NCBI GenBank assembly: GCA_005223125.1
Contig: NJBH01000002.1
Location: 62,001 to 126,000, forward strand
Reading direction: 5' to 3'
Length of the DNA stretch: 64,000 bases
From: Promethearchaeota archaeon Loki_b32
GTDB taxonomy: Archaea; Asgardarchaeota; Lokiarchaeia; Sigyniarchaeales; SOKP01
Both the position numbers and the translations under genes were made by a program. The notes below the pieces were generated by a model that was given only the letters and a program-made list of their open reading frames with translations, had not been told where the DNA came from and made no database searches. Below, piece by piece: positions 50,650 through 64,000 of the stretch. Each line of letters opens with the position of its first letter. Position 1 is the first letter of the stretch.

Positions 50650-50789
50650 TTATTCCTCAATGATAAAATCAGGCTGATAAATCTCATCATCTTCACTATC
50701 ATCTGGATCTTTCATGAATTTTAATAGGGCTTCAACAATTTTGTCTGGTCTCTTACCCTTTCCTGCTAACGCTTCAACTTTTTTACGAT
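50650..50789 (-). pseudogene. C-terminal fragment of a lost gene
   Basis: The minus strand reads KKVEALAGKGKRPDKIVEAL, then LKFMKDPDDSEDDEIYQPDF, ending IIEE at 50650-50652. It has no start and breaks exactly where the recombinase fragment begins on the other strand. The acidic tail with a KGKRPDKIVE helix suggests a protein C-terminus. Family unknown. Confidence 0.4.
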
Positions 50790-50791
50790 TC

Positions 50792-51160
50792 TTTAATTAC
50801 ATCCCAAAAAGCTTGGTCAAGTTTTTAGAGATTTTTCTTGAAGAAAGAAAATTAAAGAATGTAAAGACTAAAGCTTTATTTCTTTTCACACATTTAAAAA
50901 GATACAATGAAAGAGTGTTTAACGTATATTTAAAGAAAGTATTGAATGATTTGATTATTGAAAAAAATATCACCTGTCACACATTTAGAAGAACTTTAAA
51001 TACACTTAGAAAAGTTATGGGATGCCCTAATGAAGACCGAAAAATACTATTGAACCATAAAGTTCAAGATGTGAATGTAGAATCCTATGTAAAGATGAAT
51101 TATAAACAATATATCGAACTATATGATAAATGGTATCCTTATTATGAAGTAGTTCTTTAA
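50792..51160 (+). pseudogene. Tyrosine recombinase C-terminal fragment
   Basis: Residues in frame from about 50792 match the catalytic end of a phage/XerC-like tyrosine recombinase: the HxxR box in CHTFRRTLNTL, the LLNHK box, and the final Tyr in VESYVKMNYKQY. The first catalytic Arg domain and the N-terminal half are missing, and the upstream frame has a foreign origin, so the fragment is probably inactive. It marks a past integration event at the edge of the defence-like region. Confidence 0.7.
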
Positions 51161-53161: not shown

Positions 53162-53509
53162 TCATTTATCTTTGTTTTTAGTTAAACAGGCAAACAAATA
53201 AAGGAATTTTTCAGATGTAGGAACTACGTTAATATTTTTATCTTTTACTAATCCCTTAGCATATTCAAAATCCTTCTCTTTAACGACTAAGGTAGGATTT
53301 TCACACAGACCAATATCTTTGGCTTCTTCTAATTTGTCCATTGAATATGTAATTCTGCTTTTAGTGAATTCAACTTCTGCGCATGTGTTTTCCAATTCAT
53401 TTTGGCAGTCCAATCTTCTATTACTTTCTAAGACTTTCTCCGTTTTATTTTTGGAGCCACACCCACAGGCAATACTTTTCCAGACTTTATGTTCAGGACC
53501 TTCAGGCAT
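53162..53509 (-). CDS. Small cysteine-rich hypothetical protein
   Basis: Not recognised. 115 residues with six Cys: the pair in ACGCGSK (residues 15, 17), then RLDCQN, NTCAEV, GLCENP and FACLT, so metal binding is possible. It begins MPEGPEHKVWKSIA; the first residues recall Fpg/Nei but nothing else does. The C-terminal half looks like an alpha/beta domain (DFEYAKGLVKDKNINVVPTS). It stands alone in AT-rich DNA, with its own promoter. Confidence 0.5.
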   Translation of the reverse strand: MPEGPEHKVWKSIACGCGSKNKTEKVLESNRRLDCQNELENTCAEVEFTKSRITYSMDKLEEAKDIGLCENPTLVVKEKDFEYAKGLVKDKNINVVPTSEKFLYLFACLTKNKDK

Positions 53510-53765: not shown

Positions 53766-54899
53766 ATGAAAAAGATAGAGAACCTAATAAAGACAATTCA
53801 AAACCATATTGAACAAAAATCATTTAGTAAAGAAATAAGACAACAGATTTTAAAAGAATCCAATGATATCGTTGAAGAAATATATCAAAATTTATTCACA
53901 AAGAAAGAAATTCTATTAAATGATTTGAATTTTCTTAATCTTAACGAATATAAAATATTTGATTTAGATGGCAATTTTGTTAATGATTATTCCCGAGATT
54001 TTTATCATTTCAAATGTTTTTTAAACGCATTACTATATGATTACGAACTCAAAGTTTTTATTGAAAATTATAAAAATTCAAAATTAATCGATTCAACTCT
54101 TTTAAAATGTTATGAAGCAATAATAAGGTTATTTAACTGCTATTTTTATTTTTGGAGTTGCGAAAGACATTATGTACATAGAAGTGAAATCGAAAAAATA
54201 TTAACATTATTAGAAAATTATGAAGTTCTATTAATCAAAGAATTTGATGTTAAATTCACAGTTAATAAAAAAACAAGATATAATTTAGAAGATAAACCAG
54301 ATGAATATCTTATCAGTTTTGATGAACTTCAAATAGCTATTCATATGAGTGGTGATATTGCAGGTCATATATATACAGGATTATATGACCATACCCCTAT
54401 ATTTGAGTTTTTAAAGTCTATTAAAAAGGAATTAAATATAGGACTTACTCAATTTATTCAAGAGCTCTTTTGGAGACCATCAAAGGATAAAAGTGATACA
54501 TCATTGTTTTCAGAGTTAAGTCACTCTGATCTTCTTGATTTAATTGTTAGAAAGCTTCGAAATCTAAATTTAAAAAACATTCATAATTTTCGTGATGAGG
54601 CTAGTACTGACTTAATCTTAAATGAAAAAGGATATAAAATTGGAATTCAAGTAGAAGTAAATAATGATATTAAAGAAACCACAAAAAAACATACATTTAC
54701 TAAATCAATCAAATCTCAGATTCAAGACGCTCGAAGAATTCCTGGATTGGATAAATATATTATTCTTTTATGTATCGATTTAAATATAAAAAGTTATAAT
54801 ACCAAATTGCGAATAACCTTTTCCCAACTTGAACAGATGAATGATAATTTCTTTACATACATTACTCCTGAAAATTTAGTTGAATTTTTTTCTGATTAA
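53766..54899 (+). CDS. PD-(D/E)XK-like nuclease-domain protein
   Basis: A 377-residue protein. The helical N-terminal 200 residues are not recognised. The C-terminal domain has a nuclease-like core: ASTDLILNEKGYKIGIQVEV (D282, E297) followed by a helix with QIQDARRIPGLDKYIILLCI. D-x14-E with flanking strands fits a restriction-endonuclease-like fold, but the usual Lys is replaced by Val, so activity is uncertain. It is convergent with the long minus-strand operon, whose last stop is 46 bp away. Confidence 0.6.
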   Translation: MKKIENLIKTIQNHIEQKSFSKEIRQQILKESNDIVEEIYQNLFTKKEILLNDLNFLNLNEYKIFDLDGNFVNDYSRDFYHFKCFLNALLYDYELKVFIENYKNSKLIDSTLLKCYEAIIRLFNCYFYFWSCERHYVHRSEIEKILTLLENYEVLLIKEFDVKFTVNKKTRYNLEDKPDEYLISFDELQIAIHMSGDIAGHIYTGLYDHTPIFEFLKSIKKELNIGLTQFIQELFWRPSKDKSDTSLFSELSHSDLLDLIVRKLRNLNLKNIHNFRDEASTDLILNEKGYKIGIQVEVNNDIKETTKKHTFTKSIKSQIQDARRIPGLDKYIILLCIDLNIKSYNTKLRITFSQLEQMNDNFFTYITPENLVEFFSD

Positions 54900-54944: not shown

Positions 54945-55652
54945 TTAATAGCAATTTGAAAATATTAAATCCATCTGCATATCTATGTAATTTTCATTCT
55001 GATATTCACACGCACTACAAATTAAGTGAGTTATAGTACTTAAATAATTTATAATATCCTCTAATTCATCTGAATATTTTACTTGATTAAAACTAGAAAC
55101 ATTTAGAAGGAGTTCTTCATATTTGCTTTGTGAAAATGAAGACTTCTGTTTTAATAATTGATTATGGATTGCCATATATTTCATTAACTCCAAATTTTTA
55201 TCAGATGGCTTCAAAATAAATATTGATTCTATTTGCATCCAAATATGAAATGCTAGCTCTTCTAATATCGATGAAAATGCATATCTTTGCTGAACTGCTT
55301 TTAAAAAGAACTCTCGATATAATGGATAAAGATCATCAATTCTACTGACTTTAAAATTTACTATATTATTAATTAAATGGTCTAAAATCCCGAGGATGTT
55401 ATCGTCAATTCCCTCTATAACTGGAGGACTTGAAAGAATGAGGCAACCCGTTTTTTTAGTCAAATGAACATGACCTAACTCATGAATTATATCATAATCT
55501 TTACCTGATTCATTGAGAATTAAAATATACGTCTCTTGTGCCTGATCAAACTTAATACTAGTCTTAGAAGAAGACATAATCAGATTAATATTTACATTAT
55601 TTATGGATAATAAGTCTTTGTAATTATTTACTTTTTGAATCCATTTTTCCAT
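54945..55652 (-). CDS. HExxH metallopeptidase-like protein, last gene of the SMC operon
   Basis: A 235-residue soluble protein. IIHELGHVHLTKK gives a zinc HExxH site (H57, E58, H61), preceded by a strand (YILILNESG) as in IrrE/ImmA-like and other zincin domains. A third ligand may lie in the helices after 120 (EELAFHIWMQIES). It starts 10 bp after the upstream gene ends. It may cut a regulator or partner in response to DNA invasion; this is inference from context. Confidence 0.65.
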   Translation of the reverse strand: MEKWIQKVNNYKDLLSINNVNINLIMSSSKTSIKFDQAQETYILILNESGKDYDIIHELGHVHLTKKTGCLILSSPPVIEGIDDNILGILDHLINNIVNFKVSRIDDLYPLYREFFLKAVQQRYAFSSILEELAFHIWMQIESIFILKPSDKNLELMKYMAIHNQLLKQKSSFSQSKYEELLLNVSSFNQVKYSDELEDIINYLSTITHLICSACEYQNENYIDMQMDLIFSNCY

Positions 55653-55662
55653 AAATATAACC

Positions 55663-56586
55663 TCAAAGTTTATAAAAAATGATATTCTCTCCTTTAAATG
55701 CTATACCCAGACCAGAATTTAGATCTCGAATTCTATATTCTAAATTGTTTTTATCGAAAATAATCTGTTCAAGTTTAAATTTTAATGAATTTTGCACTAT
55801 CTTATATATTTTTTTTATTTTTGACTTAATAGCGGTTTCTCCTTTAATAATCTCTTTTTCTACCCGTTTTAGATTCTTAATTAAAATATTACAATAATTT
55901 TTATCTACTATATTATATTGCGTAATCACCATTCCACCTCCAGGACAAAAATAAGTAGTTCCATCATCCATAACGATGGGAGTATTTGTCCCCCCATTTC
56001 TCCATAATTCTCTATCACTGTCAGAGGTTTTTTCACATGAATTCATTCTAATTTTAAATCGTGCAATTAAACTTGGCCAATTTCTGTGAACAATATTTAT
56101 TATTTCCTTGTTTGTCCAATCTTTATGAGTTAAAATCTGTATAAAATAAAAATGATTCTCGTCGAACATTGCAAACAGTATTTCATTTTGACCCTTTGAA
56201 AGTCTTTTAAGACCTTTAAATCCTCCAAGATGTAAATGATATGTTCCCCATTCATTAAGTGTCACATCTGGAAAATCTAATTTCTTTAATTTTCTACTTA
56301 AAAAAGGAGTAAGGTCTTCTCCTTTTATAATTCTATTCTCTAAGTCTTTAAGATTATTTTCAAGTCCTTTTGGACAATTAAATTCTTTTGATTTTAAAAT
56401 AGTTCTAGGTTTAGACTCAATTAAACTCCGATTTAAGTTCATATAAAGAAGGCATAGTTCATCAACATTATCCAAGTTCTTAATTTTCTGCTCATATTTC
56501 ATTTCCTTAAGTCGTTTGCTATTTTCTCTTATCATAGCTTTTAAAATTTCTTTAAAATCCTTAAGTAAATTAATTTCTATCATCAT
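55663..56586 (-). CDS. Unknown protein of the SMC-Toprim-GHKL operon
   Basis: Not recognised. 307 residues, soluble. The middle has TLNEWGTYHLHLGGFKGLKR (about 121-140) and a conserved-looking IVHRNWPSLIARFKIRMN. A second block NTPIVMDDGTTYFCPGGGM suggests a beta-rich pocket with a Gly loop; the HLHLG stretch could bind metal. It lies between the GHKL gene (23 bp) and the metallopeptidase gene (10 bp) in one operon, so it probably takes part in the same process. Confidence 0.55.
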   Translation of the reverse strand: MMIEINLLKDFKEILKAMIRENSKRLKEMKYEQKIKNLDNVDELCLLYMNLNRSLIESKPRTILKSKEFNCPKGLENNLKDLENRIIKGEDLTPFLSRKLKKLDFPDVTLNEWGTYHLHLGGFKGLKRLSKGQNEILFAMFDENHFYFIQILTHKDWTNKEIINIVHRNWPSLIARFKIRMNSCEKTSDSDRELWRNGGTNTPIVMDDGTTYFCPGGGMVITQYNIVDKNYCNILIKNLKRVEKEIIKGETAIKSKIKKIYKIVQNSLKFKLEQIIFDKNNLEYRIRDLNSGLGIAFKGENIIFYKL

Positions 56587-56609: not shown

Positions 56610-58028
56610 TTATAACTTTTCTAATTTCAAGCATTTCGAAGCCATGATCCCAATTAAACGAGTCAATTCTAATTCAAATCCTCTTGAAATATCTTCACAT
56701 CTACTGAGACAATGTCCTGTCTCATGAATTAAGGTCCCAAAATAATGCTCTAATTTTCGTAAAGTACTTCTTTTTATAATTATTGTTCCAGTAGATTCTT
56801 CCCAAAGTCCATCAACTTCTCTGAATGTATAAGGATCTTTTCTCATTGTCTCGGAAATCTTTATTTTTCTTACTCTTCTTGGTTTTCCACCAATAAGCTC
56901 GAAAATTTTATCTGTTAAATTATAGATTTTCTTTTCTGATTCATTTAACTCTTCATGATCTATGAACTTAAATTCAAAACTTTCATGATCTTCAATGATA
57001 AATTGATCGATATCTCTGATAACATTACCTGAAATATCTTTTAAATCATGAATTTTTTCTCTTAAGCTATCTGGGATTGTAACTATATTCATTCCTCTAG
57101 ATTTGGCATCATCTATCAGATGAAAAGAATTTTGGATTTCAGAAGAAGTAACAAAAATTGCATTTAATTTTGAGCTAAGAATGCTTACTGCATGCTTTTG
57201 AACATCAATCCAACTTAATTCGTCATGATTTGTCCCTTGCTCAATCTTTTGTAAGTCTTCCATTAGCATTTTTGCAATATTTTCACCCTTGCAAGATAAT
57301 AGTATTTTCATAATTCTATCCCGGTATGCATTTCTCCCTACATTAGTTCTCTCTCTGTTTAATGCTTTTCTTATTTGTTTTGTTAAAGATGTAATGTTAT
57401 AACTAAATAGAAAGTATTCCTCTTCTGCCACTTTAACTCCATTTATATAGATAAATGCTTTTTCTTTAGTATTTTTATAGACATCTCCATAATCCGTTGA
57501 TTCAACTAATTTTTCCCCTGAAAACCTTAAAAATAATGCTTTTGCATTTTCTATACTCTCCACAGTAATATCTCCTAATAGAACATCGGTACCGATTAAA
57601 TCTGGGTCTGATGGGTGCAAGATCACTGCATGTAAGGTGTCTATATCTTCGAATCCATGCTTTTCGGATGTTTCTATCGTGATATCTCCAAATTTTGATT
57701 TGAGTAAAACATATACGCCATTTCTATCAAAAGTTGCTAATGCGTCTTTTAGACCTATTCCAAATTTTCCAATTAAATTTGGGTTCTCTAATTTCTCTTG
57801 ATTTTCATTCTGAGTTAAGTGATCATATTTGAGACCTCTACCGAAATCTCTTATATGCCAAAACCCATCTTCATCTTGAAAGACTTGTATATCTTCTGTC
57901 CCTGTAATCTTCTGTTCATCTATTGCATTAGCGATGACTTCCCTGATACCATGATGAACTTCCCAATCCTCTAAAATCTTTTCTATATTTAAATCAAAAC
58001 TTCTTTTGTCTTTCATAATTCCTTTCAA
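56610..58028 (-). CDS. GHKL ATPase with C-terminal HExxH motif
   Basis: A 472-residue protein. The N-terminal GHKL (Hsp90/MutL-type) ATPase shows the N box REVIANAIDEQ (E30, N34), G1 DFGRGL (61-66) and G2 IGKFGIGLKDA (86-96). After a transducer-like segment and linker, the C-terminus carries TLIHETGHCLSRC (H435, E436, H439), a zincin motif, with a following Glu (FELELT, about 452) as possible third ligand. Coupling ATP-driven dimerisation to a protease-like site is unusual. Its start overlaps the TPR gene stop by 4 bp (ATGA). No SMC arm is fused, unlike MORC proteins. Confidence 0.75.
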   Translation of the reverse strand: MKGIMKDKRSFDLNIEKILEDWEVHHGIREVIANAIDEQKITGTEDIQVFQDEDGFWHIRDFGRGLKYDHLTQNENQEKLENPNLIGKFGIGLKDALATFDRNGVYVLLKSKFGDITIETSEKHGFEDIDTLHAVILHPSDPDLIGTDVLLGDITVESIENAKALFLRFSGEKLVESTDYGDVYKNTKEKAFIYINGVKVAEEEYFLFSYNITSLTKQIRKALNRERTNVGRNAYRDRIMKILLSCKGENIAKMLMEDLQKIEQGTNHDELSWIDVQKHAVSILSSKLNAIFVTSSEIQNSFHLIDDAKSRGMNIVTIPDSLREKIHDLKDISGNVIRDIDQFIIEDHESFEFKFIDHEELNESEKKIYNLTDKIFELIGGKPRRVRKIKISETMRKDPYTFREVDGLWEESTGTIIIKRSTLRKLEHYFGTLIHETGHCLSRCEDISRGFELELTRLIGIMASKCLKLEKL

Positions 58029-59464
58029 CCTTCTTTTTCCATTTCTTCTAAATGCTTTTTAATTTCTTCATCCCCTGGACTTAATTCATTTGCTTTTAAA
58101 TAAGCTTTTTTAGCTTTTTCTAGATCTCCATTGTATTCATAAGCAATCCCTAAATTATCCCATATCATTGCATCATCTGAATCTGTCTCTAAAGCTTTCC
58201 TATAATGATCAATTGCATTCTGATATTCATCTATACAAATATAAGCTAAGGCAATATTAACTAAAGCATCAATATCATCTGGAACCTGATCTAAGATATT
58301 TTTATAGATCTTAATAGACTCTTCAAAATTTTTTGTTTCATAGTACGATTCGGCTAGACTGTGAGCATCTTCAATTGTAAATCCATTAGGAGCATATCTT
58401 GCTCCTATTTGATATACACGAATCTCAGTTATTCCGTCCTTAATTTTTGTATAAAATGAGATGGTATCGATTTTTATAATTCGATGATTATAACCAATTA
58501 TCTCGGTCGGGACTCCTTCTGGAGATAGTTTTTCCATATTATATATTGGTTGAGAATCAATATAATGAAAAGTTATATCTTTTCTTGTATCATCCATCGA
58601 AATTCTAAAATTAACATCAAATTTCGTAATTTCATAATCAGAATAATTTAGAAATCCTTGGGGGCTCTGTGTTAGGAGATTTCCAATTAAGTCAGGAGTT
58701 AATTCAGGTAAAGTTTCTCCCTCATCAATTTTAACTTCCCTTCTATAAATAATAGATTTTGTAGGGGGGCGTTTTTCCCTCTCTACTTTAAAATTTTGAG
58801 TATAACTCTCATACTCATCAATATCGGTTTGTTGAGCATTAATTTTATCGTCTAACTCTAAGCTATAGAGTTCCTCAGAAAAACGAGATCTTGCTTCATC
58901 AATCCAATCTTCGTCTGATATTTCTTCTAAATGGAATAGATTAGCCTGTATTTCTCTCAAGATATAAGATTTAATAGCAACGTGAAAATCTGAATATTGA
59001 TCACTATTTCTTAATTCTAAAAAATATTTATATTTCTGCTGACCATTTAAGTTGTCCAGCTTTGGGGATAATTTTACACTAAACGACTTAACGATATCAT
59101 CAAACCAAGATTCGAATTTACTTACTCTATAAATCTTGAGTTCAATTTGATCTTTAGCTTTAGAGAAAAAAGAAGCAATATCCATTCTATGGATGTTTTT
59201 TGATATTTTGAACTCCTTTATTTTATTTGCTTCATTTATAATTGGTGTCTTATATTTAAAACTGAGTGTGAAATCCTTGCGAGTGTTTTTTAGAATCCCC
59301 CGGAAATTTAATGGAAAATTTTTCACTTCATATTTCATAGAAGTAGGCATTGAGTTAATCCCTCCTATAAGACCTCGTTCTTTCAGATATTCAATTATAT
59401 CCTCTATTGTTAATCTAGAAATCTCTTTTACTAACTCTTTATATAATAATTTTTTTACTGTCAA
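58025..59464 (-). CDS. TPR protein with duplicated N-terminal domain
   Basis: 479 residues. Two related blocks lie at about 45-118 (YEVKNFPLNFRG, NTRKDFTLSFKYKTPI, MDIASFFSKAKDQIELKIYR) and about 273-356 (YEITKFDVNFRI, DTRKDITFHYIDSQPI, IDTISFYTKIKDGITEIRVY), an internal duplication of a beta-rich domain. Three TPRs finish the protein (about 362-475, for example AIDHYRKALETDSDDAMIWD). It is probably a scaffold bringing the SMC-nuclease core and the GHKL protein together. It starts 9 bp after the Toprim gene and overlaps the GHKL gene. Confidence 0.7.
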   Translation of the reverse strand: MTVKKLLYKELVKEISRLTIEDIIEYLKERGLIGGINSMPTSMKYEVKNFPLNFRGILKNTRKDFTLSFKYKTPIINEANKIKEFKISKNIHRMDIASFFSKAKDQIELKIYRVSKFESWFDDIVKSFSVKLSPKLDNLNGQQKYKYFLELRNSDQYSDFHVAIKSYILREIQANLFHLEEISDEDWIDEARSRFSEELYSLELDDKINAQQTDIDEYESYTQNFKVEREKRPPTKSIIYRREVKIDEGETLPELTPDLIGNLLTQSPQGFLNYSDYEITKFDVNFRISMDDTRKDITFHYIDSQPIYNMEKLSPEGVPTEIIGYNHRIIKIDTISFYTKIKDGITEIRVYQIGARYAPNGFTIEDAHSLAESYYETKNFEESIKIYKNILDQVPDDIDALVNIALAYICIDEYQNAIDHYRKALETDSDDAMIWDNLGIAYEYNGDLEKAKKAYLKANELSPGDEEIKKHLEEMEKEG

Positions 59465-59473
59465 AATCTCACC

Positions 59474-60958
59474 TCATTTTCTTTTTTCTAAATTAAAATT
59501 ATATTCTAATATCTCATTATACCATTCTAATAAAAATTCTTGCTCAACTCTTCCATTGATTAGAATAAATTGAGCAAAATTATTTAATTCAGAAATCTCT
59601 GATTTAATAAATGCTTGTAAAGAATCGATTTGTCCAAGGGGTATCTCTCGATATGGAATGTGAAATTTTAATGGAATTCTTATTATTTTTATATTTTCAA
59701 ACCCTAATCTAGTGTAAATTTCTCTAAATATATTGCATCCTCCTAGGTCATAATCTAACCATACAAAATATTTAATTTCTGGATTATTTCTAATAATTTT
59801 TTTAAGAATTGACTTCCTAAAATGTCCAGAAATTCCCATTCCTTTAATAAAAATAAGTAATGCGTTATTCTCAGTAGCCCAATTATCTAATACCAGTTGA
59901 GCAAACACCGCGAGATTTTCGATAAGCAAAACTATATCTGCATTCAGCTCAATAGAATTAATATTACTATAAGATAAATTAGAAAATGAAACTGATGGTC
60001 CAGCAATCTTAATAGATTTTCCATTCTGCATTTTTAAAATTAATTCTCCAGAAAATGTAAATGAATCTAATGCCAGTATAAGACCAATATCTTCACAATT
60101 CTTACTCGAAAAGTTCTTTATAATGGAATTAATGTCATTTGAGTATTTATCAAGGACTTTAGAAGGATCTTCATTGAATGAGAGTTCTGATTCCTGAAAT
60201 GCTCTTGCTGATACTTCTCGTAATGTTAAATTGTCTCGATAAATTTGTAACCATGTACACAATCCGTATAAAATAATTAGAAATTTTGGAGGATTGGTTG
60301 CTGAGTTCTGAGGTTTAATTGAGGTTCCGTTATTCTTTATCCATTCAGGATTTCCTTCCTTTAATAATTCTAATTGAACATTTAATAAAGAAAAAATGAT
60401 TTTCTTGTTTGCCTCTAAATCATCTTTATTAAAGATATCTAATGTATTATTAATTTTTTCAATTCCAAGAGCTATTTGCTCTTCTACATTTAAGAATCCA
60501 GTTAATTCTTTCAGCTCTTGTTTTCCATCATCTGTTAAAGAATAATATATTTTTTCATTATTAGATGTTTGAATAACATCAATTCTTTTGAGGATTAACC
60601 CTTTTTGAATAAATCCTTCTGAGATTTCATCAAGATCTTGATTCTTATAATAATTCTTTAATTTCTTTTTCCAAATATTTTCATTGATTTTATCATCCCA
60701 TAGTACTGAGATAATTGATCTGAAGAACGCTAATTCATTTTCTTCGAAATTATAATTTTCAATTGGAATTGTGCAAGTAATTAGTTTTTTTTCTTTTCTA
60801 CGTTTTCCCCAAGTCATTTTATGTAGTGGACATTCTTTAATTTCGAAACTATGAATTACCTGATAAGGCCCCTCAGTTATTTCATATACTTTATTAACCC
60901 ATTCAAATGAATCTGAGGGACATTCGCAAGGTTTTTTCTTAATGCTCTCGGATGGCAT
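59474..60958 (-). CDS. JetD-like Toprim nuclease subunit of a Wadjet-like system
   Basis: 494 residues. The C-terminal Toprim domain has the conserved Glu in LLIENLAVF (E347) and the DxD in FVWLDYDLGG (D402, D404), with a C-terminal GRVEQEFLLEW stretch. The region before it (about 255-290, RDNLTLREVSARAFQESE) matches the JetD-type helical domain. The N-terminus has Cys/His clusters and winged-helix-like segments (residues 75-165). In Wadjet, JetD cleaves DNA loops extruded by the SMC complex. The gene overlaps the SMC gene by 20 bp, so the two are made together. Confidence 0.8.
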   Translation of the reverse strand: MPSESIKKKPCECPSDSFEWVNKVYEITEGPYQVIHSFEIKECPLHKMTWGKRRKEKKLITCTIPIENYNFEENELAFFRSIISVLWDDKINENIWKKKLKNYYKNQDLDEISEGFIQKGLILKRIDVIQTSNNEKIYYSLTDDGKQELKELTGFLNVEEQIALGIEKINNTLDIFNKDDLEANKKIIFSLLNVQLELLKEGNPEWIKNNGTSIKPQNSATNPPKFLIILYGLCTWLQIYRDNLTLREVSARAFQESELSFNEDPSKVLDKYSNDINSIIKNFSSKNCEDIGLILALDSFTFSGELILKMQNGKSIKIAGPSVSFSNLSYSNINSIELNADIVLLIENLAVFAQLVLDNWATENNALLIFIKGMGISGHFRKSILKKIIRNNPEIKYFVWLDYDLGGCNIFREIYTRLGFENIKIIRIPLKFHIPYREIPLGQIDSLQAFIKSEISELNNFAQFILINGRVEQEFLLEWYNEILEYNFNLEKRK

Positions 60959-63830
60959 CAGTTAAATCTCTTACTCGTTTTATTTCTTTATCAAAATTAA
61001 TTAATGTAATCTGAGATTCTTTATTTTGATTTTTCCAAATTTGAATAATATGGGGAAATATTCTTATATAACCGGGTGTAGGGGTATATGGAGATATGCA
61101 AATTAATTTTTTATTAGGTAAATGTTGCTCGATGACCCTTGCTAGAAGTTCCTTATGGTCATCAGCTATATTTTGATCAAACTCGTCCCATACCGAAAAT
61201 GGTGAAGGAGATTCGGCTAATATTGCGATCTCAAATGCTATAGAAGCTCTAAGTCTTTCACCTTTACTAAAATTCGCATATTCGATAGCATCTAATGACC
61301 CATCAATTGTATTTGAGACATTTATATTTAATTGATAATCTCCCTCAATTTCTGTTGGATTGAACTTTAATTCTCCATCTAAATTAAGCCCTCTCATTAC
61401 TGATCTGTAACGACGACTTACTATATCTTGCCATTTAATAAGCTTGTCTTTTAAATTATCAACAGCAATTAAAAATGTATTTTGGCATTCATTTTTTTCA
61501 TATTCATATTGTTGATTTAATTCTTCCAAAGTTTGAATATCTTTTTTAGAAACTTCATAAATTTTGACAATTGAGGAATCTATATCTTGATACTGATCAA
61601 GGGCTGATCTCGTCTCAATAATTCTTTTTTCTAATGCTTCTAATGTTTCAGAAGGTTTCTTGATTTTGTGTAAAATTGTCTTAGCTTCATTGGTTATCGC
61701 ACGATACTGAAAATTTTCATCAATAATATAGTTATCAACTATTGAAACTGTTTCTTGGTTATCCTCAATATTTTCCAAGAGAGTCCAATTCTCTACTAAA
61801 TTATTAAACGTATTTGCGGTGTTCGTTAAATCTTTTATTAATATAGTTAGTTTATTTATATTTTCATTAATAGAATTTTTTTTTTCTTCCCTAGTTTTTT
61901 TAAATCTTTCATTATCCTCTTTCAGACGCTCTATATTTTGTCTAGGAAATGAGAGTATAGAAATTAACTCATTTAATCTATTAGATAAATCTCCTTTTTT
62001 TTCTATAATTTCATCAATATCTTTCTCTTCTTCTCTCAATGCGAGATATTCTAATTTTTTATTTATTGTTTCTAGATTTTGCTGTCTTTCTGAAATTTCA
62101 GATTTAAAATCTCCCATTTGCTTCTTCAAATTTTCTATAAGCATAAATAATCGATTTTTTTCTTTCTCAGGTGCGCCTTCTCCTATCATGTAGGGGGTAT
62201 TGATAAAATGGAATTTTCTTTGAGAATAAATATTATAGGTGTACCCATCTTGGCAATAAATTCTAGAATAAGGGGCATCTTCTAAAAATAATTCCTTTTC
62301 TTCAAAAGTATTCGCGAAATAAAAATTATGCATCATTAAATTCATTAAATCTTCAATTGTTTCTGAAGGAAGTGATTGGGGGCACACTTCTAACAAGTCT
62401 GACCAATCTCGTAATCCTTTTTTTCCCTTTAATACATAATTTTTTCGAGGACTTAAAATAATTGCATCTGATTTTAAATCTCTATTGATTTTTTCAGCAA
62501 TCCTGCCGTGTTTTTCATCAACAACTATACCTGTTTTATATGAAGCTAAAATATTTTCAATATATTCTTGCCATCTTTCAGTTCCTTGTTTAAAATCCAA
62601 AGTCTCATATAATAATTCAGAGTTGATATCTCTTTGTTTTAAGGCATTTTGAACCTTGAAGATATCAGAAGGAATATCAAATTTCTTTTGTTCTAATTCT
62701 TTTAATTTTTTATTATACTCGCGATATTCTCTTTGGATAATTACCAAGTTTGCCTTTATTTCATCTAACTTTTGTTCTTTTTGCTCTTTTTCTTCTTGAA
62801 TGAATAATTGATCAGATATCTCTGAAAGTTCTATATTAAGATTTTGTAAATATGAGATAACAACTTCGTATTTATCTTTATAATTTCTTATCTCATATTC
62901 CATATCATAGACTTCTTGTTGTACTTTATCCTTCTCTTCTTTTTGGGATTGGAATTTTTCTTCTATATTAGTGATTTTAGTTTTATTGTTTTTTATCTCA
63001 TTTCTTAATCTTTCAATATCTTCCTTTAACTTTTCATTCTCTTCATAAATACTTATAAAATCTTTTTGGTTATCATCAAAACTATTAAATGTAAAATGGA
63101 TTTTTGCTTTAAGTTCCTTTATTTGAAGTTCTGCCAAATACCTCTCAAACTCAACCTTTTTTTGATATCTTTTGTAAGTTGCTTCAATATTTTGGAATTT
63201 TATATAAAACTCCCTTAATTTATCATTTGCTTCATCTAATTTCTTGTCAGCCTCATCAAGCTCATTTCTTGTTATTTTAACCTTTTCTTTATAATCTTCG
63301 ATTCCAATAAATTTTGAAACTGCATTATATCGTTCTTTCGGCGATTTTTGAGTCCATATTGCGGTCTGTTGATCATCAATAAAAATAAGAGGGTCTTTCC
63401 ATTCTCCGAAATTTTTTAACTCTTCTTTAGTAATTTTTTTTTCCTCTCCTTTAATTCTTATATAACGTCTATTCCTCTTTTTCTTACCTTTAAAGGCCTC
63501 AAGACCTATAGTTATTTCTTCGTCAATTGGATAGATATTTAGGGCATCTGGGCCTGTATTTAATACAGCTAATTCAATTTTAGCATGATTCTTATAGACT
63601 TTACTTTTAGTACCCCCTTCTTCAATTTCCTCATAAGTAAAAAATTCATTATCTCGTTCAATTTTTCTTCCTAAAACATACTGTACTGCATTAAGGATGT
63701 GTGACTTACCTGAACCGCTACTTCCAGTAACATAGCAACGATCACTGAGATCTCCGAAGGAAATAATCGTATTTTTATGACTTCCAAAATTTTGTAAAAA
63801 TAATTGTTTTAGTATAGGATAACTACCCAT
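60939..63830 (-). CDS. JetC-like SMC ATPase of a Wadjet-like system
   Basis: 963-residue SMC/MukB-like ATPase. Walker A GSSGSGKS at 36-43; coiled coils at about 170-380 and 560-800; a hinge-like globular part at about 390-540 (QRDINSELLYETLDFK, GIVVDEKHGRIAEKI) without a zinc hook; the ABC signature FSKGERLR at 854-861; Walker B in SVWDEFD (D882, E883). It is shorter than most MukB/JetC. Two such subunits with a kleisin would extrude DNA loops. It overlaps the upstream partial gene by 8 bp. Confidence 0.82.
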   Translation of the reverse strand: MGSYPILKQLFLQNFGSHKNTIISFGDLSDRCYVTGSSGSGKSHILNAVQYVLGRKIERDNEFFTYEEIEEGGTKSKVYKNHAKIELAVLNTGPDALNIYPIDEEITIGLEAFKGKKKRNRRYIRIKGEEKKITKEELKNFGEWKDPLIFIDDQQTAIWTQKSPKERYNAVSKFIGIEDYKEKVKITRNELDEADKKLDEANDKLREFYIKFQNIEATYKRYQKKVEFERYLAELQIKELKAKIHFTFNSFDDNQKDFISIYEENEKLKEDIERLRNEIKNNKTKITNIEEKFQSQKEEKDKVQQEVYDMEYEIRNYKDKYEVVISYLQNLNIELSEISDQLFIQEEKEQKEQKLDEIKANLVIIQREYREYNKKLKELEQKKFDIPSDIFKVQNALKQRDINSELLYETLDFKQGTERWQEYIENILASYKTGIVVDEKHGRIAEKINRDLKSDAIILSPRKNYVLKGKKGLRDWSDLLEVCPQSLPSETIEDLMNLMMHNFYFANTFEEKELFLEDAPYSRIYCQDGYTYNIYSQRKFHFINTPYMIGEGAPEKEKNRLFMLIENLKKQMGDFKSEISERQQNLETINKKLEYLALREEEKDIDEIIEKKGDLSNRLNELISILSFPRQNIERLKEDNERFKKTREEKKNSINENINKLTILIKDLTNTANTFNNLVENWTLLENIEDNQETVSIVDNYIIDENFQYRAITNEAKTILHKIKKPSETLEALEKRIIETRSALDQYQDIDSSIVKIYEVSKKDIQTLEELNQQYEYEKNECQNTFLIAVDNLKDKLIKWQDIVSRRYRSVMRGLNLDGELKFNPTEIEGDYQLNINVSNTIDGSLDAIEYANFSKGERLRASIAFEIAILAESPSPFSVWDEFDQNIADDHKELLARVIEQHLPNKKLICISPYTPTPGYIRIFPHIIQIWKNQNKESQITLINFDKEIKRVRDLTDAIREH

Positions 63831-64000
63831 TATTAGGTTCCTCCTCTTTCTTTTGTTGAATTACATCCATCACACTTAATTGTCTAGTGGTTGGTTTAAG
63901 TATTTTCCTCAATTCTAAATAATCTTTAGGCAAATAGGGTTCTAAATTAATATCAGTATATTCTTCATCTATTTCTCTTAATATACGTTTAAGCATTTCT
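63823..64000 (-). CDS. Partial gene upstream of the SMC gene (jetB-position)
   Basis: Only the last 58 codons are in the window: KRILREIDEEYTDINLEPYL, then PKDYLELRKILKPTTRQLSV and a polar tail ending EEEPNNG, with stop TAG at 63823-63825 overlapping the SMC start. In jetABCD order this place belongs to JetB, the MukE-like subunit; the visible part is too short to prove it. The rest of the operon lies beyond the right edge. Confidence 0.55.
   Translation of the reverse strand, partial: EMLKRILREIDEEYTDINLEPYLPKDYLELRKILKPTTRQLSVMDVIQQKKEEEPNNG

Follow-up and report, generated by a model that had tools for sequence, protein, structure and literature searches.

A GHKL ATPase joined to a minigluzincin-type domain in a Lokiarchaeote: a candidate ATP-gated metalloprotease of antiviral defense

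Background

Does a single gene of a Lokiarchaeote encode both an ATP-driven clamp and a zinc-dependent peptidase, and if so, what would such a protein be used for? This question is raised by a gene, here termed GHKL-zincin, in a 64,000-nucleotide stretch of Promethearchaeota archaeon Loki_b32 (the window; contig NJBH01000002.1, positions 62,001 to 126,000). An initial annotation had noted GHKL motifs and a C-terminal HETGH in one frame and had suggested MORC-like clamping on DNA or on an SMC complex that activates a protease. Our analysis supports the two-domain architecture and favors a single-chain ATP-gated metalloprotease of antiviral defense, mainly acting as a one-gene system, with an estimated probability of about 0.55.

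Gene and domain architecture

The gene is located at 56610-58028 on the minus strand, where an open frame of 472 amino acids contains REVIANAIDE, DFGRGL, GKFGIGL, and HETGH, i.e. the full GHKL motif set and the HExxH motif noted initially. A plus-strand reading of this interval was discarded because of 43 stops. The listed start of the frame, a TTG at 58028, shares bases with the stop codon of the gene before it. Since an ATG at 58016 is preceded by AAAGGA and agrees in position with the N-termini of the homologues, it is probably the start, which would result in a protein of 468 amino acids. The predicted protein is composed of a GHKL ATPase domain (residues ~9-185), an Hsp90-like middle region (~186-350), and a minigluzincin-type peptidase domain (350-472).

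Conservation was assessed in an alignment of 71 full-length homologues, which stem from many phyla of bacteria and archaea and share 42-61% identity with the window protein. The N box (E-N-D), G1 (DxGxG), and a GxxGxG-like G2 are present with invariant catalytic positions; E30, N34, D37, E38, D61, G63, G65, G87, and G92 were each found in 71/71 sequences, 52 of which matched Pfam HATPase_c_3. A full-length AlphaFold model built from the homologue alignment reached a mean pLDDT of 89.9. Among solved structures, Foldseek ranked full-length Hsp90 and GRP94 first (E 3.8e-9, with a low global TM-score), followed by GyrB and MutL. The family profile matched the middle domain of Hsp90-beta in the PDB at residues 247-343 (E 0.014) and a weak HtpG alignment covered residues 279-392; single-sequence profile comparisons with HtpG and MutL are weak and were used only as backing for Foldseek. 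Sequence and fold together show that the N-terminal part is a GHKL ATPase and that the middle region is Hsp90-like. The MORC analogy drawn initially was not upheld. Neither the MORC family nor a MORC-type S5 domain was reported in Pfam scans of the window protein and the 71 homologues, and the best structural matches were Hsp90 in the PDB and phage homologues and RIIA among viral proteins; the assignment was therefore dropped.

The C-terminal motif required a different kind of support. HExxH occurred in 4.9% of shuffled GHKL-zincin sequences of identical composition; therefore, the motif on its own is not significant and could be due to chance. Its conservation in the aligned homologues shows that it is not a chance motif. 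H435, E436, H439, D446, F451, and E452 were each present in 71/71 homologues, with the x positions (437 and 438) free to vary, and the pattern HExxH...D...FE is still kept at about 24-25% identity. The HETGH codons (residues 435-439, the putative zinc-binding and catalytic motif) map to 56712-56726 on the minus strand according to sequence and homologue alignment, and codons 446-452 to 56673-56693 on the same strand according to alignment and model.

When residues 350-468 were modelled alone with AlphaFold, a pLDDT of 96.6 was obtained. The region comprises strands 388-392, 407-410, and 415-419 (full-length numbering) and a helix 426-442 that carries the HExxH motif with the catalytic Glu, which is conserved in 71/71 homologues. 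It is followed by a loop with D446 and a second helix 449-471 with E452 near its start. Both residues are invariant in the 71 homologues, and a relative from Exiguobacterium phage 132 keeps the Asp but has Thr in place of E452. From alignment and model, the third zinc ligand could be either D446 or E452. The best Foldseek match of this region was proabylysin (4jiu; E 3.2e-3, probability 1.00, TM 0.57), with selecase/projannalysin and then a YbeY-like protein and IrrE/PprI as further matches; TM values to solved zincins were moderate (0.5-0.57) and none of these matches was below E 0.001. In sequence searches of the PDB, Wss1 was the best match (E 0.024), and a Pfam SprT-like match was found in 11 of the 71 homologues. 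Wss1 and Spartan, both DNA-activated, have been assigned to the minigluzincins (PMC4559962). In Wss1, the loop that follows the helix provides the third zinc ligand, His125 (PMC5557861); the corresponding position 445 of GHKL-zincin varies, without a conserved His in the 71 homologues, and membership in Wss1/SprT was dropped due to the missing ligand. Sequence and model support a minigluzincin-type zincin, which is a predicted peptidase. The proposed joining of a GHKL ATPase to a zincin is thus supported by invariant residues and minigluzincin fold matches: a zincin-like site at the C-terminal helix and conservation of the motif were both looked for and both found, as was an invariant Glu452 on the helix following the HExxH motif.

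Distribution of homologues

Of the 228 genomes scanned from this phylum, 7 gave a match to GHKL-zincin, which in two cases was a short fragment, and the gene is not conserved within genera or families. Since our homologue scan relies on short seed patterns, all of its counts are lower bounds: 101 encoding loci in GTDB, of which 80 were retained, and forms on 3 viral contigs, 9 plasmids, and 2 phages. The GTDB loci belong to Bacteroidota, Pseudomonadota, Bacillota, Chloroflexota, Actinomycetota, DPANN archaea, Thaumarchaeota, haloarchaea, and Asgard archaea. For the viral contigs, the single-protein query yielded no locus and the alignment query the three loci mentioned. Phyla are intermixed in the tree, in which well-supported branches split several of the groups. 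This topology is in keeping with horizontal transfer, without proving it. Some homologues (L021, L031, and L032) contain one in-frame stop, two of these copies being in a single Nitrosopumilus genome, which suggests decay or sequencing error.

Genomic neighborhoods

Most homologues have no co-directional neighbor within 80 bp, and no gene family accompanies GHKL-zincin in most loci. A general multi-gene system was therefore rejected, and the protein must usually act alone. The search for further GHKL-HExxH proteins and their neighbors that had been proposed initially led to the 71 full-length homologues and to surroundings rich in defense genes. The 135 nearest-neighbor proteins matched 370 PADLOC models, one of them found in 8/135, and 132 control genes from 19 of the same genomes matched 136 models, none in more than 1/132; this enrichment is semi-quantitative, because models rather than distinct proteins were counted and AAA-type models are promiscuous. 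An N-terminal ABC-type P-loop was present in 6/135 neighbors vs 0/132 controls. Three of the six are SMC-like ATPases of ~570 amino acids encoded directly upstream of GHKL-zincin in DPANN archaea. On Salinibacter plasmid pSR56, the gene is located between hsdS and hsdR of a type I restriction operon, and in Natrinema zhouii it is flanked by SIR2/ADP-ribosylglycohydrolase and Piwi/phospholipase-D genes. A further form is encoded near cas3 on Alkaliphilus plasmid pB6464 (L099:3943-7257:+), where a protein of 1104 amino acids combines three tandem GHKL-Hsp90-like modules with one C-terminal zincin.

The Lokiarchaeal operon

In the window, GHKL-zincin is the sixth of eight genes in a tight minus-strand cluster with gaps of -20 to +23 bp, in the order jetA-like, jetB-like, SMC, JetD-like TOPRIM, TPR, GHKL-zincin, PD-T4-7-like, and second HExxH protein. 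The jetA-like gene (454 amino acids) lies beyond the window, next to the jetB-like gene on its far side; of the latter (223 amino acids, running to 64494), the window contains the 3' end (63823-64000, minus). Both candidates are based on gene order, fitting size, and conservation in related loci, and neither had a significant PADLOC or Pfam (Wadjet) match. The gene in the JetC-like position (60939-63830, minus) encodes an SMC ATPase of 963 amino acids with a Pfam SMC_N match above cut-off and a PADLOC JetC1 match (E 2e-12), although coiled-coil matches are unspecific. The JetD-like nuclease subunit with its Topo VI A-like TOPRIM (59474-60958, minus) is supported by PADLOC JetD1 (E 4e-16) and by Pfam JetD_C above cut-off. 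The partner gene at 58025-59464 (minus) encodes two copies of an unnamed domain and C-terminal TPR repeats, and its assignment as a partner is based on sequence and on the second Lokiarchaeal operon described below. Downstream of GHKL-zincin, a PD-T4-7-like defense gene (55663-56586, minus; PADLOC E 2.8e-33) follows after 23 bp, and after a further 10 bp a gene (54945-55652, minus) for a second HExxH protein (HELGH; YDIIHELGHVHL) with a weak M78/IrrE-like match below cut-off. The sequence evidence characterizes the operon as JetABCD(Wadjet)-like.

A second operon was found in Lokiarchaeota CR_4 (L011, on the same contig as L089), with jetA, jetB, SMC, jetD, GHKL-zincin, and TPR genes. Here, a rearranged homologue of the TPR partner gene adjoins GHKL-zincin, which is frameshifted in the draft contig. 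The pairing has been kept although the two SMCs are only 30% identical and the order of the GHKL-zincin and TPR genes is swapped, which argues for a functional link between GHKL-zincin and the Jet-like operon in the two Lokiarchaeotes. This link is derived from two loci, and in the tree their GHKL-zincins form no supported group; they may have been captured into Jet-like operons once or twice. Three related Jet-like loci of the phylum (G017, G054, and G074) do not contain GHKL-zincin; therefore, it is an optional addition to this operon. The SMC link put forward in the initial annotation thus applies to this locus and the second Lokiarchaeote but not in general, as most homologues are solitary genes.

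Several further features of these loci were recorded. Homologues of rad50, mre11, herA, and nurA, named by sequence appearance, are located directly upstream of jetA on the same strand (L014:3912-10600:-), and in CR_4 their place is taken by a YhaN-like ATPase and an Mre11-like fragment (L011:16550-20000). In the JetABC-like operon of G054 (L110:9638-11365:+), the N-terminal half of JetD is fused to a Ser/Thr kinase domain (Pfam Pkinase, E 6.6e-43) that replaces the TOPRIM nuclease; as predicted from sequence, the effector of a Wadjet-like system has here been exchanged in an unusual way. The G017 (L109:15869-19000:-) and G074 (L111:1-3333:+) loci share two extra genes upstream of jetA, for a protein of ~240 amino acids and an SMC/Rad50-like ATPase of ~800-860 amino acids, and perhaps represent a six-gene version. 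In the window, a 377-amino-acid protein encoded at 53766-54899 (plus) converges with the operon and has a weak NCBIfam XopAX match (E 1.2e-5, far below cut-off). A short phage-integrase fragment (50714-51160, plus) and a truncated frame beginning MPEGPEHKVW (53162-53509, minus) are situated at the far end of the gene cluster and are perhaps remnants of mobile DNA.

Phage relatives

Relatives of the GHKL module are encoded in 100 phage records. Comparison of the model with viral protein models gave phage homologues as the best matches, followed by RIIA proteins. Phrog_6077 matches residues 19-326 of GHKL-zincin, and both PHROG 6077 and 8203 are listed in PHROG without an assigned function. The GHKL protein ends without a zincin in the four isolates for which it was read over its full length, VPMS1 (L135), ChuuTotoro (L136), phiXF1 (L137), and Vibrio 1.122, and in one environmental podovirus. 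Moorella phage MTATph1 (L100) and Exiguobacterium phage 132 (L134) encode both domains with damaged GHKL motifs; in MTATph1 (~24% identity), Glu436 is kept and the N-box Asn is lost. No relatives of the phage copy were found in the viral contigs scanned. The occurrence of host GHKL-zincins and phage relatives suggests a conflict between related clamps. The protease-less phage proteins (phrog_6077, RIIA fold) might even be dominant-negative partners that clamp with host GHKL-zincin and block it, a speculation to which we give little credence; if true, it would provide a mechanism for an RIIA-type protector protein.

Proposed function and alternatives

A role of GHKL-zincin in defense is proposed because of its sporadic spread, the plasmid copies, the surrounding defense genes, and the precedent of VcSduA, a GHKL-type Shedu protein that combines a GHKL ATPase and a nuclease in one protein and blocks phages (PMC12137116). 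As in the GHKL superfamily, the ATPase and the Hsp90-like middle region would dimerize and close on a ligand upon ATP binding. By comparison with the zincin fold, H435 and H439 would bind the zinc together with E452, D446, or both, and E436 would act as general base. The peptidase domain occupies the place of the Hsp90 dimerization domain. A signal derived from the invader would cause clamp closure, by which the peptidase might be exposed or aligned, and cleavage of a host or invader protein would then stop replication. In this Lokiarchaeote and one relative, a JetABCD/Wadjet-like SMC-nuclease operon has acquired GHKL-zincin and the TPR protein, and its DNA-sensing complex probably triggers or uses the protease.

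The main rival of this interpretation is a function in DNA repair, in which DNA would be gripped by the GHKL clamp and freed of crosslinked or blocking proteins by a Wss1/SPRTN-like peptidase. This is suggested by the proximity of the peptidase domain to the group including the DNA-activated Wss1 and SprT/Spartan (PMC4559962), by SMC/Rad50-type ATPase genes recurring beside GHKL-zincin (P-loop in 6/135 vs 0/132), and by the rad50-mre11-herA-nurA homologues directly upstream of the operon in Loki_b32. We nevertheless consider it unlikely, given the very sporadic occurrence within the phylum (7 of 228 genomes), the plasmid copies, the copy within a type I restriction operon, and the missing third-ligand His of Wss1 (PMC5557861). 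Mobile elements might instead use the protein as a selfish or counter-defense gene that cleaves host defense proteins. Copies on plasmids, 3 viral contigs, and, in diverged form, 2 phages are compatible with this, as is the resemblance of the phage relatives to RIIA, a protector against exclusion; most copies, however, reside in bacterial or archaeal contigs among defense genes rather than phage or transfer modules, which makes this explanation improbable.

The Hsp90-like N-terminal and middle regions would also fit an Hsp90 paralogue in chaperone-like quality control that binds and cuts misfolded clients. Housekeeping chaperones, unlike GHKL-zincin, are conserved within genera and families, and the neighbors of GHKL-zincin are defense genes; a quality control function thus appears very improbable. 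A structural or vestigial zinc site in a protein that works only as an ATP clamp is scarcely credible: phage relatives consisting of the GHKL module without zincin imply that the module is able to work alone, but the catalytic Glu436 is present in 71/71 homologues together with both histidines, and at ~24% identity in MTATph1 it was this Glu that was kept and the N-box Asn that was lost.

Comparison with known systems

The full architecture is unnamed in PADLOC, Pfam, and NCBIfam, which yielded only generic ATPase or SprT-like matches, and annotated records of homologues read 'ATP-binding protein'. No description of the fusion was found in the literature searched, outside of which most subscription papers and preprints fall. 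Effector enzymes fused to a GHKL sensor are a known theme; a zincin in this role appears to be undescribed there. If the defense interpretation is true, prokaryotic immunity includes a widespread ATP-gated protease, now annotated only as 'ATP-binding protein', with the build of GHKL-Shedu and a different weapon; in archaea related to eukaryotes, it is sometimes joined to an SMC/Wadjet-type machine. It would also tie an Hsp90/RIIA-type phage clamp to host defense and make the old question of the role of RIIA-like proteins directly testable.

GHKL-zincin resembles Hsp90/HtpG in the succession of a GHKL domain and a middle region of similar fold, and, by eye, a loop NRER is located where the LNVSRE loop of Hsp90 would be expected. 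In contrast, identity is very low, and the C-terminal dimerization domain of Hsp90 is replaced by the zincin at residues 350-468. Phage RIIA and phrog_6077 share the GHKL plus middle fold, but the C-terminus of RIIA is variable, and no zincin is present in those phrog_6077-type proteins that were read. MORC and paraMORC proteins are likewise GHKL ATPases near prokaryotic restriction genes, and no peptidase is mentioned in the description of these restriction-system ATPases (PMC2292703).

The minigluzincins proabylysin and selecase/projannalysin share the fold of residues 350-468, including HExxH and the conserved Glu on the next helix; they are stand-alone proteins of ~105-110 amino acids, whereas GHKL-zincin has the same domain fused to an ATPase. 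The DNA-protein-crosslink proteases Wss1/SPRTN (WLM, SprT) belong to the same group of small zincins with similar motif surroundings (HELTHNLFGPHD..F), and differ in the third ligand, which is His125 in Wss1 as opposed to the invariant D446 and E452 in GHKL-zincin. The likeness to Wadjet (JetABCD) consists of operon order and gene sizes and of the SMC and JetD-like TOPRIM subunit beside GHKL-zincin; known Wadjet systems contain neither the GHKL-zincin nor the TPR gene. By analogy, VcSduA is the nearest working analogue. In both proteins, a GHKL ATPase at the N-terminus and a clamp-like middle region are thought to control a C-terminal enzyme, which is a PD-(D/E)xK nuclease (DUF4263) in VcSduA, a domain for which Pfam and PADLOC scans of GHKL-zincin gave no match, and a zinc peptidase domain in GHKL-zincin.
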